Under the pieces are notes generated by a model that ran no database searches, was not told the origin of the DNA, and was given only the letters and a program-made list of their open reading frames with translations. A program made the position numbers and the translations under genes. From Candidatus Aminicenantota bacterium (GTDB taxonomy: Bacteria > Acidobacteriota > Aminicenantia > UBA2199), in contig JAUXFB010000006.1 of NCBI GenBank assembly GCA_030620255.1, positions 1 through 15,354 on the forward strand: DNA of 15,354 bases. Reading direction: 5' to 3'. This document shows, one piece after another, positions 1,785-9,940 of the stretch. The stretch's first letter is position 1; every line of letters begins with the position of its first letter.

Positions 1785-1803
1785 AATAAATCAAAAAAAT
1801 ATA

Positions 1804-1828
1804 GGGATCAGGTCTCACGGACCCCTTA
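1804..1828 (+). repeat. REP-like repeat, degenerate copy
   Basis: 25 bases, starting GGGATCAGGTCTCACGGACC. It differs at two positions from the perfect copy at 4008-4032 and has the same orientation. The two substitutions weaken the hairpin stem (GGGATC/GGACCC). The GGTCAGGTCT core resembles REP/RAYT-associated palindromes found in many genomes (from memory, not searched). Confidence 0.75.
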
Positions 1829-1839
1829 CTTTGCTATCT

Positions 1840-1859
1840 GGGTTTGATAAATCAAACCC
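1840..1859. terminator. Perfect palindrome GGGTTTGAT-AA-ATCAAACCC
   Basis: A 9-base perfect inverted repeat around AA (effectively an 8-bp stem with a TAAA loop). It lies between the converging DUF4097 gene (+) and the 410-residue gene (-). It has no T-run directly downstream on either strand, so it is not a classic intrinsic terminator. It may be a bidirectional stop, an mRNA 3'-end stabiliser or a REP-type element. It belongs to a cluster of three hairpins at 1804-1924. Confidence 0.55.
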
Positions 1860-1903
1860 CTACTTCAGCATACACATGCACACACATATGAACAATAATC
1901 AAT

Positions 1904-1924
1904 AAATAGGATGTGTCCCTATTT
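1904..1924. repeat. Inverted repeat AAATAGG-(7)-CCTATTT
   Basis: Seven-base arms (1904-1910 and 1918-1924) around an ATGTGTC loop. The GGATGTGTCCCTATTTT core resembles another palindrome often seen near REP-associated transposases (recalled, not searched). It ends 14 bases before the stop of the minus-strand gene, so it could serve as its 3' hairpin. Confidence 0.5.
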
Positions 1925-1938
1925 TATAAAGACTTTTA

Positions 1939-3171
1939 TTATCTTCTATGGTTCTTATCAGCACGCTTATGCTGAAACCTTCCAGGCCCATTATAATCAT
2001 CAGGCATCCTGTTAACTCCTAATGGCTTCACATATGAATTTTCTCTCATCATTGCATCTTCCTGAATCTGATCTGCAACTGTTGTAAATACCTTAATCTT
2101 AATATTCTTTGATGAAGCAGGATCAGGATTATTAGAGCTGTACTGAAAACCAGGAGGAGAAAAGTTCACTAAATAAATAGCTCTGCCTGCATCATTGACA
2201 AGCTTACCGCCAGATACATAAACACACTGGTGTGTTCCTCCATCAGCTCTCAAACCACTACTAGCCTGAAGCAATTCATCTAAAATAGTATCAAAATCAG
2301 CGGTTGGCATTGTTTTAATATCGCTTCTACTGATAATGTAAGTTTTTTTATCGAATTCCTCGTCATGAACAGGATTTTGATTCTCGTTAATAATGTGTGT
2401 TACGCCATTTGTTATGTATGAGTTTACTTTTCCCTTGTAATTAAGAGTTATGAGAGTATTATCTCTATTTATCATGTCAATAGCGTCTTTAAGATTTTGC
2501 TCTGCGTCTCCTGCTGCGACTTCTGCTTCCCACAATCCAACATCAATGCTTCTCTTATCATATCTTATGACTGTTCCATCTCCTGTGTTAGGATCTACTG
2601 GATTTCCTATGCTCTTAGCAAGGGTTACTGTGTCAAAATCATTTGGCACGAGATTGGCGTACATTGTTATGTTACTTTTCATGCTGTATTGTTTGAATGT
2701 TCCGTTCTTGTCCCTGGCAAAGACTATGTCTCCTCCAACTTCTCCAAGGATATATGTTCTTTTGTATCCGTCTACTCCTTTTACTTCTATACTGTTCACT
2801 ACATTTCCAGGTATTTTAAAATTGTCTCCATTGTACCCGGCTGTGTTATTCACCACAACTTCTCCTCCTACTATGTTGTTTCTAGTGAAAACATCCTGCA
2901 GATGTACTGTTAGATAGTATTCTTGAGGATCATGATTATTTATGTCTGCTGTTTTACATCCTGTATTCATTCCTACATTGATCAGCATTCCTAGTCCTGC
3001 TAATGTTAGACTAACATATTTCTTGAATTTTCCAGGTTTCTTGTTCATGCCCATCAATTCAATAGTGTCTTTGAAAGGGTTTTTTACTATTTTTTCTAAA
3101 CTAATATCTTCTGAAGAAGTATTCGGAACATACAGGTTTGTCTCAGGAATTGTTGTCATGTTTTGGTTCAT
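1939..3171 (-). CDS. Unrecognised 410-residue exported/lipoprotein-like protein
   Basis: I do not recognise this family. Residues 1-50 are polar. A hydrophobic stretch at about 52-68 ends in MNTGC (C72), a poor lipobox, so the protein may be membrane-anchored or lipidated. A start at M42 would give a more usual signal peptide, but M1 has the better ribosome site (GGGTGA, 9 bases upstream). Residues 85-190 look like a beta-sandwich (TVHLQDV...GGEVVVNN...), as in regulatory or PEGA-like domains. Residues 220-345 alternate helix and strand and contain LDELLQASSGL near 297-307. The C-terminus is basic (HKRADKNHRR). Codons differ from neighbours: lines 2461-2520 and 2581-2640 count 42% GC against 27% in cinA. 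This suggests transfer. The gene is inside the REP-bracketed island, back to back with the DinJ/YafQ pair. A strong promoter and about 125-base leader precede it. ORFs in the opposite frames are low-complexity shadows. Confidence 0.75.
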   Translation of the reverse strand: MNQNMTTIPETNLYVPNTSSEDISLEKIVKNPFKDTIELMGMNKKPGKFKKYVSLTLAGLGMLINVGMNTGCKTADINNHDPQEYYLTVHLQDVFTRNNIVGGEVVVNNTAGYNGDNFKIPGNVVNSIEVKGVDGYKRTYILGEVGGDIVFARDKNGTFKQYSMKSNITMYANLVPNDFDTVTLAKSIGNPVDPNTGDGTVIRYDKRSIDVGLWEAEVAAGDAEQNLKDAIDMINRDNTLITLNYKGKVNSYITNGVTHIINENQNPVHDEEFDKKTYIISRSDIKTMPTADFDTILDELLQASSGLRADGGTHQCVYVSGGKLVNDAGRAIYLVNFSPPGFQYSSNNPDPASSKNIKIKVFTTVADQIQEDAMMRENSYVKPLGVNRMPDDYNGPGRFQHKRADKNHRR

Positions 3172-3217
3172 CTTATCTTTTCACCCTCTTTTATTTAGTA
3201 TTATCATCATGTTTTTA

Positions 3218-3256
3218 TTACTTATGGTTCTCTTTCTTTATAAACCTTTTTATCAT
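3218..3256 (-). CDS. Possible 12-residue leader peptide
   Basis: Inside the predicted leader of the 410-residue gene, ATG at 3256 opens MIKRFIKKENHK and stops at TAA. AGAGGT sits five bases before the ATG, a better ribosome site than many genes here have. A second, site-less 9-codon frame (MMIILNKRG, 3181-3210) ends in TGA within the main gene's ribosome site. Either may be translated and coupled to the main gene, or both may be chance. Confidence 0.2.
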   Translation of the reverse strand: MIKRFIKKENHK

Positions 3257-3303
3257 TTTACCTCTTTTATTTCTAATCTTTCATTCTTAATTGTTCTATA
3301 TAT

Positions 3304-3332
3304 TTTATATTACATCAAAAATTTAATGTCAA
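3304..3332 (-). promoter_or_regulatory. Predicted sigma-70 promoter of the 410-residue gene
   Basis: On the minus strand, TTGACA (3327-3332), 17 bases, TATAAA (3304-3309): near consensus and the best promoter in the window. The predicted start near 3297 leaves a leader of about 125 bases before the ATG at 3171, unusually long for this window. It diverges from the dinJ promoter, the two -35 boxes being about 43 bases apart. Confidence 0.6.
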
Positions 3333-3375
3333 TAATGATAAGTATAATAAAAAAAAATAATATTTAAAAAATAGG

Positions 3376-3404
3376 TTGAAAAATCCTAAAGAATGTATTA
3401 TATT
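3376..3404 (+). promoter_or_regulatory. Predicted promoter of the dinJ-yafQ operon
   Basis: TTGAAA (3376-3381), 17-base spacer, TATATT (3399-3404); an alternative -10 is TATTAT at 3401-3406. The predicted start near 3411 falls on the edge of the palindromic operator, so repressor bound there would block polymerase, as expected for an autoregulated antitoxin. Confidence 0.55.
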
Positions 3405-3412
3405 ATTTATGG

Positions 3413-3429
3413 GCTACATTGTAGCTACA
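3413..3429. promoter_or_regulatory. Palindromic operator for the antitoxin
   Basis: GCTACA-T-TGTAGC (3413-3425) overlaps the perfect 10-base palindrome TGTAGCTACA (3420-3429), giving three TGTAGC half-sites in 17 bases just upstream of dinJ. Overlapping inverted half-sites are typical of ribbon-helix-helix repressors such as DinJ/RelB. It is placed at the predicted transcription start. The symmetry is seen; the function is inferred. Confidence 0.6.
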
Positions 3430-3449
3430 TTAAATAAAGGAGATGATAC

Positions 3450-3716
3450 ATGGATAATAGCGTTGTTAGATCTAGAATTGATCCAATAGTAAAGCAAGAA
3501 GCAAATCGCATTTTTAAAAATATGGGCATTACTCTGAGTGATGGCATTCGACTTTTCCTTTATCAAGTAATTGCTGAGAAAGCTTTACCGTTCAAGGTGA
3601 AAATGCCGAATAAAAAAACTATTGCTGCAATGGAAGCTGCGCGCAAAGGCGAAACTGAACCCACAAGTCTTGAGCATATAGCAGATGAATGGAATAACGC
3701 TGAATGCGAGAAATAG
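3450..3716 (+). CDS. dinJ: DinJ/RelB-family antitoxin
   Basis: Antitoxin of a type II toxin-antitoxin pair. Its N-terminal ribbon-helix-helix binds the operator and its C-terminal part wraps and inhibits the toxin. The 88 residues have the family pattern: strand SVVRSRIDPIVKQEANRIF (4-22), then MGITLSDGIRLFLYQVI (25-41), then KALPFKVKMPN (44-54) leading to an acidic toxin-binding tail. AAAGGAG (3436-3442) precedes the ATG. The stop is TAG, used elsewhere in the window as a stop only by its partner. The last 13 bases overlap yafQ, so translation is coupled and antitoxin is made first. GC in 3541-3600 is 38%, above the chromosome's average here, consistent with transfer. Confidence 0.93.
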   Translation: MDNSVVRSRIDPIVKQEANRIFKNMGITLSDGIRLFLYQVIAEKALPFKVKMPNKKTIAAMEAARKGETEPTSLEHIADEWNNAECEK

Positions 3717-3976
3717 TTAGAACTTCACAATTTAAAAGTGATCTCAAAAGGCTGGCTAAGTCTAATAAATACAGCATTGACGAATTGCTTGCTATTGTAG
3801 AAAAACTGGCAAATGATATTTCATTGCCTGTAAAAAATTGCGATCATCCTTTAACCGGTAAATGGAAGGATTATAGAGATTGCCATATACGTCCTGATTG
3901 GTTACTTATCTATCAATTGGAATCAGAGAAATTGACTTTAGTTAGAACTGGCTCTCATGCAGAATTATTTAGATAG
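3704..3976 (+). CDS. yafQ: YafQ-family mRNA interferase toxin
   Basis: RelE-superfamily endoribonuclease that cuts mRNA at the ribosome when antitoxin is degraded. The 90 residues match the family length. All six residues described as important in E. coli YafQ have counterparts: H48, H61, D65, W66, H85 and F89, inside DHPLTGKWKDYRDCHIRPDW (47-66) and RTGSHAELF (81-89). It should therefore be catalytically intact. The ATG lies within the end of dinJ; coupling replaces a strong ribosome site. The stop is TAG, followed 29 bases later by a perfect hairpin (4006-4031) that probably ends the operon. Function is confident from the family; activity in this host is not shown. Confidence 0.93.
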   Translation: MREIVRTSQFKSDLKRLAKSNKYSIDELLAIVEKLANDISLPVKNCDHPLTGKWKDYRDCHIRPDWLLIYQLESEKLTLVRTGSHAELFR

Positions 3977-4005
3977 AAAAAAATTAATTTAATATATTAA
4001 TATAC

Positions 4006-4031
4006 AAGGGGTCAGGTCTCACTGACCCCTT
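4006..4031. repeat. REP-like perfect hairpin, possible terminator
   Basis: AAGGGGTCAG (4006-4015), six-base loop GTCTCA, CTGACCCCTT (4022-4031): a perfect 10-bp stem. Its 25-base core (4008-4032) matches 1804-1828 at 23 of 25 positions in the same orientation. It lies between yafQ and the ispG promoter and could act as terminator or insulator. The paired copy over 2 kb away marks it as a dispersed repeat rather than a gene-specific terminator. Confidence 0.8.
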
Positions 4032-4038
4032 ATGTCTA

Positions 4039-5195: not shown

Positions 5196-6209
5196 GTGAA
5201 GAAAATTTTAGTTTTATTTATTGTTGTAAGTGTTTGCTTTATTGGTTGCAAAACAAAAAAATATAAAGAAAACGGAATATATGCAGAAATAAATACTAAT
5301 AAAGGTCAAATTGTAATTTCTTTAGAATTTGAAAAAGCCTCAATAACAGTTGCAAATTTTATAGGACTCGCACAGGGAACAATAAAAAACAGTGCCCTAC
5401 CAGATGGAACACCTTTTTTTGATGGTTTATAGTTTCATAGAGTTGTTCCTGATTTTGTTATACAAGCTGGTGATCCGCTGGGAACAGGTGAGGGTGGCCC
5501 GGGTTATAATTTTCCAAACGAAATCCATCCCAATTTAAAACACGACAGTCCGGGTATAGTTGCAATGGCAAATGCAGGCCCAAACACAAATGGAAGTCAA
5601 TTTTATATCACACACAAAGCCCTTACTCATCTTAATAATAAATATTCAATATTCGGAAGAGTAATTAAAGGAATGAATGTTGTAAATAAAATAGAAAAGG
5701 GAGATATTATAAAAAATATTAAAATTATAAGGGTTGGTAAAAAAGCAAAGGTTTTTAAATCTGACAATGAGTCATTTCATGAGATGGTAAAAAAAGCAAA
5801 TGAAAAAATTCAGAAGGAGATAGAAATTAAAATGAAGCAAGATAAAGAATTTATAAACACAAAATGGCCAGATGCAATAACCACAGAAACTGGCTTGAAA
5901 TATATTGTAATAAAAAAAGGTAAAGGCAAAAAACCTGTAAAAGGTACAAAAATTAAGGTTCATTATATTGGAAAACTATTAAATGAAAAGATATTTGATA
6001 GTTCAATTGATAGGGGAAAACCAATAGAATTTGAAGTAGGTATTGGCAGGGTTATAAAAGGATGGGATGAAGCTCTTCTTGATATGAAAAAAGGAGAGAA
6101 GAGAATTTTAATCATTCCTCCAAACATTGCATATGGTAAAAGAGGTGCAGGGAGTGCGATCCCTCCGGATGCAACTCTTATTTTCGAAGTAGAATTAATT
6201 GATCTATAA
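5196..6209 (+). pseudogene. Cyclophilin-FKBP dual prolyl isomerase lipoprotein with one in-frame TAG
   Basis: Fusion of both immunophilin PPIase families, as in known dual-family immunophilins. GTG at 5196 follows CGGAGG; the N-terminus MKKILVLFIVVSVCFIGC is a lipoprotein signal, so the site would be periplasmic. Codons about 29-184 are cyclophilin: [15 protein letters not shown] just after the stop (catalytic Arg), [25 protein letters not shown] charged helical linker covers 185-230. The FKBP domain is 231-337, with [26 protein letters not shown] and a final LIFEVELID. Codon 79 is TAG (5430-5432) in FFDGL-stop-FHRV, where relatives often have Tyr or Thr. The frame is otherwise open with no second lesion. 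Without readthrough, only a 78-residue stub is made. A restart at ATG 5565 lacks a ribosome site. It may be a recent nonsense mutation, a sequencing error or recoding. Confidence 0.85.
5430..5432 (+). other. In-frame amber codon in the cyclophilin domain
   Basis: TAG at codon 79 of the fusion, between GGT TTA and TTT CAT AGA. One base change (TAG to TAT/TAC) restores Tyr, giving the common LYFHRV cyclophilin motif. Of the other fully visible genes, eleven end in TAA, three in TGA and two (dinJ, yafQ) in TAG. Confidence 0.9.
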
Positions 6210-7144: not shown

Positions 7145-8386
7145 ATGAGAGCAATATTTATTGCTGTTGGAAGTGAATTATTAGAAAGAGACAGAATTGA
7201 CACAAATTCTTTATACGCAGCTAAAAAACTAAGAGAAAAAGGTATTTTAATGGATATGAAAATCACTGTATGTGACAATCTCGAAAATTTAACATGGACA
7301 GTAAAAAATGCATACAAAAGAGCTCAATTAGTAATAATAACAGGTGGACTTGGACCAACTGAAGACGACTTGACAAGGGAATCAGTTGCAAATGCATTAA
7401 AAAAAGATCTTGTATTTAAAGAAAGCATTGTTGATGAAATAAGAGAAACCTTTCTTAAACGTGGCATAAGAAAAATGCCTGAGATAAACAAAAGACAAGC
7501 TTTTATTATTGAAGGTGCAGAAGTTTTATCTAACAATGTAGGAACTGCCCCTGGCTTATATATTGACGATGAGAGTTGTAAGGTATTATTATTACCAGGA
7601 CCTCCAAGAGAGATGATACCAATGTTTGATAAAATTTTTGAAGAAAAAATAGCTCCGTTATCGAATTTTTATATATATACAAAGAGTTTAAAATTTTCAG
7701 GAATTACTGAATCTGAGACTGATTCGAAAATTGCTGAAATATATGCTAAATATAAAAACCCAAAAACAACAATACTTGCTACACCCGGATTAATTGAAGT
7801 ACATCTTATTGGCAGGTCAAAAAAATCAACAGATGAGGCACAAACTTCAACAGATGAATTAGCTGAAAAAATAAAAGAGCGAATGAAGGATTACATATTA
7901 ACTGAAAAAGATATTAGTATTGAGGAACTAATTGTAAATGAATTAAGGTCAAGGGAAACAACTTTAAGCATTGCTGAAAGCTGCACTGGCGGTGCTTTTG
8001 GTGATAGAATTACAAATGTTGCAGGAAGCTCTGAAATATTTCTTGGAGGAATTATTGCATATTCAAATGAGCTTAAAGTGAAGATGCTGGGTGTTAAAGA
8101 AGAAACTTTAAAAAAATATGGCGCTGTATCTAAAGAAACAGCAAAAGAAATGGCACAAGGAATAAGAAAAAAAACTGGTTCTGATATTGGAGTTTCAATA
8201 ACTGGAATTGCCGGACCTGGAGGAGCTACCACAGGAAAACCTGTAGGGCTTGTTTTTATACACTTAAATTCTAAAAAAAAAGACAAAGGAATCTACAAAA
8301 TATTCCCAAATGATAGAAATGTAGTAAAAATTGGAGCAGTGAATTTCAGTCTCAATCTTATCAATAAATATTTAGATGATAAATAA
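7145..8386 (+). CDS. cinA: CinA-family protein (nicotinamide-nucleotide amidohydrolase, two-domain)
   Basis: Full-length CinA of 413 residues. The N-terminal half has the MoaB/MogA-like molybdopterin-binding fold (COG1058), which in characterised CinA proteins acts as an ADP-ribose/nucleotide pyrophosphatase: IAVGSELL at 6-13, DTNS at 19-22, GGLGPTEDD at 67-75, LPGPPREM at 150-157. The C-terminal half (about 255-413) is the PncC-type NMN deamidase domain: SIAESCTGG at 275-283, IIAYSNELK at 303-311, GIAGPGG at 354-360. NMN deamidation recycles pyridine nucleotides. GGAG (7130-7133) lies 11 bases before the ATG. The stop overlaps the next gene by 11 bases, implying coupled translation. The gene often neighbours competence or recA genes; here it does not. 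Confidence 0.95.
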   Translation: MRAIFIAVGSELLERDRIDTNSLYAAKKLREKGILMDMKITVCDNLENLTWTVKNAYKRAQLVIITGGLGPTEDDLTRESVANALKKDLVFKESIVDEIRETFLKRGIRKMPEINKRQAFIIEGAEVLSNNVGTAPGLYIDDESCKVLLLPGPPREMIPMFDKIFEEKIAPLSNFYIYTKSLKFSGITESETDSKIAEIYAKYKNPKTTILATPGLIEVHLIGRSKKSTDEAQTSTDELAEKIKERMKDYILTEKDISIEELIVNELRSRETTLSIAESCTGGAFGDRITNVAGSSEIFLGGIIAYSNELKVKMLGVKEETLKKYGAVSKETAKEMAQGIRKKTGSDIGVSITGIAGPGGATTGKPVGLVFIHLNSKKKDKGIYKIFPNDRNVVKIGAVNFSLNLINKYLDDK

Positions 8387-9113
8387 TATAGATACTATTG
8401 ATGATATTACTTTTGACTTTTTTTATAAAAAAAAAGTAATTGTCCTTCAGAGAAAAGAGGGGTATAGATTTTCTGTTGATTCACCCATGCTAGCCGATTT
8501 TTTGCCCTTTTCTCCCAATGATAAAGCGATTGAAATAGGTACAGGTTCTGGAATAATCTCATTGCTTGCATTGTATAAAAAAAAATTTTCTTACATATAT
8601 GGGATTGAAATCCAGAACAAATTAAGTAGATTAGCAGAAATAAATGCAAAAAAGAACAATTTAAATCAAAAATTTAAAGCAATAAATGCTGATTTTAATG
8701 AAGTATATAAGAATTTTTCTGGCATTAAAACAATATTTTCAAACCCTCCATTTAAAAAAAAATATGTTGGAAGATTAAGCCCAAATGAGGAAATAAGAAT
8801 TTCAAAGGCAGAAATAAAAATAACCTTAATAGAGTTACTTGAAAAATCTTTTTCAATCTTAGGAGAAAAAGGTAGTTTATATCTAATTTTACCACATAAT
8901 AGATATGAAGAATTAATTCAATTATCTAATGATATAGGTTATTTTGTGTCAAAATTAAGGTATATTTTATCTTTTAAAGATGGAAAAACAGAACGATTTT
9001 TGATACAATTAACAAATTATAGAGGTTCATTTAAAGAATTGAAGCCTCTGATTGTTTTTAAACACAAAGGTGTTTATACTAAAGAAATGGAAGATATACT
9101 CTCAGGAAGTTAA
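8376..9113 (+). CDS. TrmN6-like tRNA1(Val) adenine-N6 methyltransferase
   Basis: SAM-dependent methyltransferase of the YfiC/COG4123 family, 245 residues. Its best-known member methylates A37 of tRNA-Val. Visible are the N-terminal QRKEGYRFSVDSPMLADF (25-42) typical of the family, SAM motif I EIGTGSG (53-59), the acidic ribose-binding IEIQ (77-80), catalytic NPPF (123-126) of N6-adenine methylases, and the family block RLSPNEEIRISKAEI (133-147). The C-terminal part, SLYLILPHNRYEEL onward, continues the Rossmann fold. Start ATG 8376 lies inside cinA (11-base overlap), so translation is coupled. wzm follows after two bases. The codon 18-20 region contains a run of nine A (8427-8435), a possible slippage site. 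The exact tRNA target is not certain. Confidence 0.88.
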   Translation: MINNIDTIDDITFDFFYKKKVIVLQRKEGYRFSVDSPMLADFLPFSPNDKAIEIGTGSGIISLLALYKKKFSYIYGIEIQNKLSRLAEINAKKNNLNQKFKAINADFNEVYKNFSGIKTIFSNPPFKKKYVGRLSPNEEIRISKAEIKITLIELLEKSFSILGEKGSLYLILPHNRYEELIQLSNDIGYFVSKLRYILSFKDGKTERFLIQLTNYRGSFKELKPLIVFKHKGVYTKEMEDILSGS

Positions 9114-9115
9114 GA

Positions 9116-9940
9116 ATGATTTTAAAATTAAAAGATTTATTTAAATACAGGCAATTAATATTTACCCTTATTTCAAGAGAACTAAAAGCAAGATATAGAG
9201 GTACTGTTTTTGGTTTTCTATGGAGTTTGATTAACCCTTTACTTCTTTTAGCCGTATATTCAATAGTTTTTGGTATTATCTTACCCGGAAGTAGTGGCAG
9301 AATTGAAAACAAAGATATTACTGGTATAAATTACTCTATTTTTCTATTTACTGGATTACTACCATGGATCTGGTTTAATTCCTCCATACTTGAATCATCG
9401 AATGTACTTTTTATTCATGGTAATTTGATAAAAAAGATCAAATTCCCAATTGAAGTTTTACCTGTTATGACTGTTCTTACAAACATGATTCATTTTATAT
9501 TTGGCATACCTATATTAGTACTGTTTATTATTTTCTTTGGTAAAGGTGTGGCAATAACTCCATGGGTACTCTTCTTCCCTGTTGCGGTTTTTGTACAGTT
9601 TGTCTTTACAATGGGTTTAAGCTTCCTTGTTTCTGCTCTTACAGTTCATTTTAGGGACCTTAAAGACATTCTTGCAAATTTTTTGACTTTATGGTTCTTT
9701 GGAACTCCAATTATATACGCATTTATGACACCTGCAATCCAAAACCATAAAGCAATGGTACTAGCATTATCCCTGAACCCAATGACCCATATTATAGAAG
9801 CATATCATTATACTTTCTTCTTTGGTTCACTTCCCCACTGGAAAAAACTACCTATAACTTTAGCTGTTGGTTTAATTTTCTTTTACATTGGCTATTTAAT
9901 TTTCGATAAATTGAGAGACACTTTTGTTGAAGAGGTATAA
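9116..9940 (+). CDS. wzm: ABC-2 type polysaccharide export permease (Wzm-like)
   Basis: Inner-membrane channel subunit that, with Wzt, moves a completed lipid-linked polysaccharide (O-antigen, or teichoic acid in Gram-positives) to the periplasm. It has 274 residues with the ABC2_membrane pattern: amphipathic N-terminus LISRELKARYRGTVFGFLWS, then about six membrane segments, including PLLLLAVYSIVFGIILPG, FTGLLPWIWF, MIHFIFGIPILVLFIIF, VLFFPVAVFVQFVFTMG, LTLWFFGTPIIYAF and LAVGLIFFYIGYLIF. The conserved HFRDLKDI and LNPMTHIIEAY blocks are present. CAGGAAG precedes the ATG. wzt starts two bases after the stop, so the two are made together. No glycosyltransferases follow, so the exported polymer is unknown. 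Confidence 0.94.
   Translation: MILKLKDLFKYRQLIFTLISRELKARYRGTVFGFLWSLINPLLLLAVYSIVFGIILPGSSGRIENKDITGINYSIFLFTGLLPWIWFNSSILESSNVLFIHGNLIKKIKFPIEVLPVMTVLTNMIHFIFGIPILVLFIIFFGKGVAITPWVLFFPVAVFVQFVFTMGLSFLVSALTVHFRDLKDILANFLTLWFFGTPIIYAFMTPAIQNHKAMVLALSLNPMTHIIEAYHYTFFFGSLPHWKKLPITLAVGLIFFYIGYLIFDKLRDTFVEEV

Follow-up and report, generated by a model that had tools for sequence, protein, structure and literature searches.

A cyclophilin–FKBP fusion gene interrupted by one TAG codon

We analyzed a 15,354-nucleotide stretch of DNA (the window) from a Candidatus Aminicenantes metagenome-assembled genome (MAG). This genome, G000, comprises 1,753,095 bases on 325 contigs and is 77% complete with 4.46% contamination. 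On its forward strand the window carries a frame of 338 codons whose translation contains a single internal stop, the TAG at codon 79, in the context FFDGL-stop-FHRV; beyond this codon the frame stays open up to its final TAA (Table 1). The arginine of the FHR motif, which we take to be the catalytic residue of cyclophilin, is codon 82 and lies downstream of the TAG.

In the intact protein of a sister genome, Pfam places cyclophilin (PF00160) at residues 30–180 and FKBP_C (PF00254) at residues 245–335, with 64 residues separating the two matches, no third Pfam domain and no TPR. The ORF that begins after the stop matched parts of the domains of both families, the FKBP domain being complete. 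Read with X at the stop, the window's frame and the sister protein match at 93%. The translation, the Pfam domains and the open frame to the TAA confirm the original prediction of a cyclophilin–FKBP fusion broken by one TAG at codon 79.

Table 1 Positions of the fusion gene, its stop codon and other features in the window and in related genomes
Feature	Sequence	Position	Strand	Remarks
Cyclophilin–linker–FKBP (CFBP-type) gene, interrupted	Window	5196..6209	+	GTG start, TAA end
In-frame TAG, codon 79	Window	5430..5432	+	AAG (Lys) in both same-genus genomes
Pre-stop 78 codons	Window	5196..5429	+	Lipobox-like leader VCFIGC (by eye) and first quarter of cyclophilin, without FHR motif
Putative 214-aa ORF from ATG after stop	Window	5565..6209	+	C-terminal part of cyclophilin and complete FKBP_C
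Segment without match at this place in sister stretches	Window	1785..4038		
Near-identical 22-base copies	Window	1804..1825 and 4008..4029		
uvrB with lone internal TAA	G002 (L246)	7401..9371		
tmRNA	G000:C224 (L086)	3141..3486		
Pyrrolysine loci	G006, G019, G021	L073-L075, L258-L260, L266-L268		pylS, tRNA-Pyl, in-frame TAG in mttB

If intact, the encoded protein is a CFBP, an already known kind of dual-family peptidyl-prolyl isomerase (PPIase). An N-terminal cyclophilin and a C-terminal FKBP share one frame in the sister protein and in the window's frame read with X, and Pfam leaves a short linker without TPR between them in the sister protein; in the window's genome the TAG at codon 79 breaks what would be one continuous product. 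CFBPs are bacterial dual-family PPIases with the arrangement CYN–linker–FKBP, and Table 1 of the review by Barik (2018, PMC6316441) gives their hosts as Flavobacteria (n = 235), spirochetes (n = 26), proteobacteria (n = 7) and others (n = 10). Like the CFBPs described there, the window gene is bacterial and has a cyclophilin, then a short linker, then an FKBP, with no third Pfam domain. Unlike them, it is cut by a stop, and its host belongs to the Aminicenantes, a group outside those named in that table (PMC6316441).

Elsewhere in the window, the segment without a match at this place in the sister stretches encodes a 410-aa protein on the minus strand, with no Pfam match, and a RelB/DinJ–YafQ toxin–antitoxin pair. 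It also contains the near-identical 22-base copies, and a diverged copy (3 mismatches) is found at the corresponding place in the sister genome G001.

Codon 79 in sister genomes and wider relatives

The sisters, G002 and G001, are Ca. Aminicenantes MAGs of the same genus and are both 92% complete. Where they share sequence with the window, their DNA is ~95–97% (G002) and 86–90% (G001) identical to that of the window, with order kept. The fusion gene aligned gap-free over 337 residues (93% in G002, 83–84% in G001), and it has no stop in either sister. Codon 79 is AAG (Lys) in both, so that tyrosine, named beforehand as the expected sister residue, was not borne out.

Among 80 loci, sisters included, 63 motif-defined sites equivalent to codon 79 encode lysine (n = 42), threonine (n = 9), isoleucine (n = 4), leucine (n = 2), alanine (n = 2) or glutamine, arginine, valine and histidine (n = 1 each), and none of them is a stop. 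Ten other matches spanning both domains (both sisters included, with G003:C513 reaching only to residue 285) likewise contain no stop. Stops within the match in 11 other homologue rows (G022, G009, G019:C174, G003, G005, G006, G008, G012, G015, G019:C42 and G059) were all inspected, and each proved to be the natural gene end or, in G003, to lie before the start. Across the relatives compared, no internal stop other than the window's TAG was seen in the fusion gene. Given AAG in the sisters and lysine as the commonest residue in the wider relatives, the stop arose by a single base substitution, either in the lineage of the window or in its assembly. In genus g8 (G009 and G019), the orthologue terminates with TAG just past the cyclophilin domain at both of the loci inspected; the FKBP half is absent there or has been lost.

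TAG as a terminator in this genus

Stop codon usage was tallied on 39 of the 325 contigs of G000 (238,791 bases), some of which had been picked for carrying tRNAs or release factor 1 (RF1). Among 175 ORFs of at least 150 aa, 95 end in TAA, 56 in TGA and 24 in TAG. The original prediction had restricted TAG to dinJ and yafQ, which held in the window, where only these two of the 16 genes checked end in TAG, but failed genome-wide given the 24 TAG-ending ORFs. RF1 is intact in G000, scoring 477.3 bits against a cut-off of 423.25. A genome-wide reassignment of TAG, marked by a lost or changed RF1 and by TAG going unused as a terminator, is not what we found in this genome.

The median distance to the next in-frame stop was 7.5 codons after TAG, 7 after TAA and 5 after TGA. 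The mean was higher after TAG (38.8 codons versus 26.7 for TAA and 11.5 for TGA) because of one 658-codon run. This run turned out to be a separate next gene with its ATG three codons after the TAG. Open runs of at least 40 codons follow 3 of 24 TAG, 12 of 93 TAA and 1 of 56 TGA codons.

We also compared gene ends in 81 own/sister pairs (sampled G002 plus one G001 contig, dropping orthologues below 80% identity), 73 of which are co-terminal and 8 not. Twelve own ORFs that end in TAG have an orthologue in the sister; 10 of them are co-terminal, 4 of those facing TAA or TGA, and the remaining two are the fusion gene and one frameshifted gene. RF2 of G002 itself terminates in TAG; for both G002 and G006, the one TAG counted in RF2 as a candidate internal codon turned out to be the gene's own end. 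Further upstream, in another frame, lies the stretch LRGYL-TGA, which corresponds to the frameshift site usual for RF2. Opposite a tryptophan of the window's stp frame, G001 has a TAG, which sits upstream of the conserved methionine that opens the conserved part and was taken to precede the real start. TAG functions as an ordinary stop in this genus.

Background of lone lesions in draft genomes

Sampled G002 DNA (62 pieces, 911,023 bases) was compared with sampled DNA of the window's genome over orthologues of at least 85% identity. Two of the 89 own genes (27,284 residues) carried an internal lesion: the fusion gene its TAG, and a gene with an OmpA domain a frameshift. The reverse comparison, run as a control, gave a single lesion among 79 sister genes (24,422 residues), namely a TAA in the G002 uvrB (codon 347). 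Stops close to the start or the end of a gene were set aside and left uncounted, comprising 4 of 6 own stop rows (K662 of 665, TAA; Y508 of 509, TAG; K3 of 550, TAG; W5 of 102, TAA) and 1 of 2 sister rows (E233 of 240, TAA).

The sister uvrB is 95% identical overall to that of the window's genome, which has tyrosine at the site of the lone TAA. Because this codon is TAA, TAG recoding cannot explain it. This reverse control contradicts the view that an isolated lesion is out of the ordinary when the rest of the gene is undamaged: single internal stops belong to the background of these draft genomes. Such stops call for checks of RF1, tRNAs and the sister codon before recoding is claimed.

Origin of the stop codon

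Codon 79 almost certainly carries an AAG-to-TAG nonsense change, either a young mutation or an error of the draft consensus, with TAG read as a stop and not under a new genetic code. Both a recent nonsense mutation and a sequence or assembly error had been proposed at the outset, and both are supported by the AAG of the sisters and the background lesions. In this assembly, a single base change has turned Lys79 into TAG. With RF1 reading TAG as a stop, the product would be cut off at 78 residues without reaching the FHR motif, and would probably be a dead stub of the cyclophilin. Internal re-initiation would be the only way to make the FKBP half, which would then be leaderless. The intact gene would probably encode a foldase of the CYN–linker–FKBP type, predicted to be a lipoprotein.

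After the stop, dN/dS is 0.18 against both G002 and G001, compared with 0.35 and 0.28, respectively, before it. The post-stop codons still look constrained, which suggests that the stop, if real, is young. A genuine nonsense mutation of recent date, whether fixed or still segregating, would make the gene a pseudogene or a strain variant and would be tolerated because other PPIases remain; we give this reading slightly better than an even chance. Contig C269 of G000 encodes another cyclophilin, which is free of stops; together with the g8 genes ending past the cyclophilin domain, it suggests that, should the stop be real, the cell may cope with losing the fusion protein. Post-stop codon changes, which are small in number, comprise 7 non-synonymous and 6 synonymous changes on the window branch; the sister branch has 3 and 10, respectively. 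This difference leans toward a real mutation, but the counts fit both a young mutation and an error, separating neither. Against a real mutation stand the absence of a second lesion in the gene and the low post-stop dN/dS.

Alternatively, the cells may carry AAG and an intact gene, the TAG being a consensus or assembly error, which we regard as a realistic possibility somewhat short of probable. Such an error would be in keeping with the fragmented and incomplete state of this MAG, with the frameshift elsewhere in it and with the lone TAA in the uvrB of a sister MAG. The retention of AAG in both sisters and the constraint persisting past the stop also fit an error. However, no other lesion was flagged in the window against sister ORFs, and for a substituted base to enter an assembled contig, more than one read normally has to support it. 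As a stop codon in one MAG, the finding matters little.

Pyrrolysine decoding in the family

Decoding of this TAG as an amino acid, through pyrrolysine or a suppressor tRNA, could draw on the lysine ancestral at codon 79 (pyrrolysine is a lysine derivative), on the constraint past the stop and on the pyrrolysine systems of three other genomes in the family, but is highly improbable given the intact RF1, TAG ends co-terminal with TAA or TGA in orthologues and the fusion gene being free of internal TAG in every relative inspected. No CUA anticodon was present among the 35 of 35 tRNAs assigned in G000. The best pylS match in G000 reached 21.2 bits against a cut-off of 178.15, and G000, G001 and G002 gave no pylS over the cut-off, no match to the tRNA-Pyl model (R1, stricter filters) and no mttB with TAG. 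With RF1 intact and TAG ending genes at conserved positions, these results tell against the amber suppression or TAG reassignment raised by the original prediction. In G000, the tag peptide that ARAGORN predicts for the tmRNA is odd, being 28 residues long and rich in cysteine, and perhaps reflects a misplaced reading frame.

Compared with known pyrrolysine decoding of TAG (pylT, pylS, pylBCD and MttB), the window shares an in-frame TAG within a gene that is intact apart from it, and the system occurs in the family. It differs in that these components went unfound in its genome and the sisters, and in that the TAG is not conserved among orthologues, which have AAG in the sisters and no stop at any of the 63 sites.

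When applied to 60 relatives, pylS exceeded the cut-off in three (G006, G019 and G021), and model R1, under the stricter filters, was positive in the same three, which had been used to build it. In these three members of the family, pylS adjoins a tRNA-Pyl (CTA), and MttB has an in-frame TAG. Since all three components were found there, the searches are able to detect real recoding. Had the 92% complete sisters possessed a pyrrolysine system, these searches would probably have revealed it; for the 77% complete G000 this is less sure, and missing machinery in that genome taken alone counts for little. There is a very slim chance that a CUA tRNA on contigs missing from G000 reads codon 79 as lysine or pyrrolysine, which may yield the full foldase under some conditions.

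Among open-licence PMC papers, as far as their text was available, we found none ascribing a pyrrolysine system to Aminicenantes or Aminicenantota. The amber recoding in other family members matters more than the stop in the window and is the better lead, with the proviso that MAG contamination is 4–7% in G006, G019 and G021 and that the pyl contigs may be foreign. In G019, pylBCD-like genes lie downstream, and G021 has a pylB-like gene (both assigned by eye). The frame neighbouring mttB, taken by eye for MtbB, holds a TAG in all three genomes and two in G006, the second near its end.
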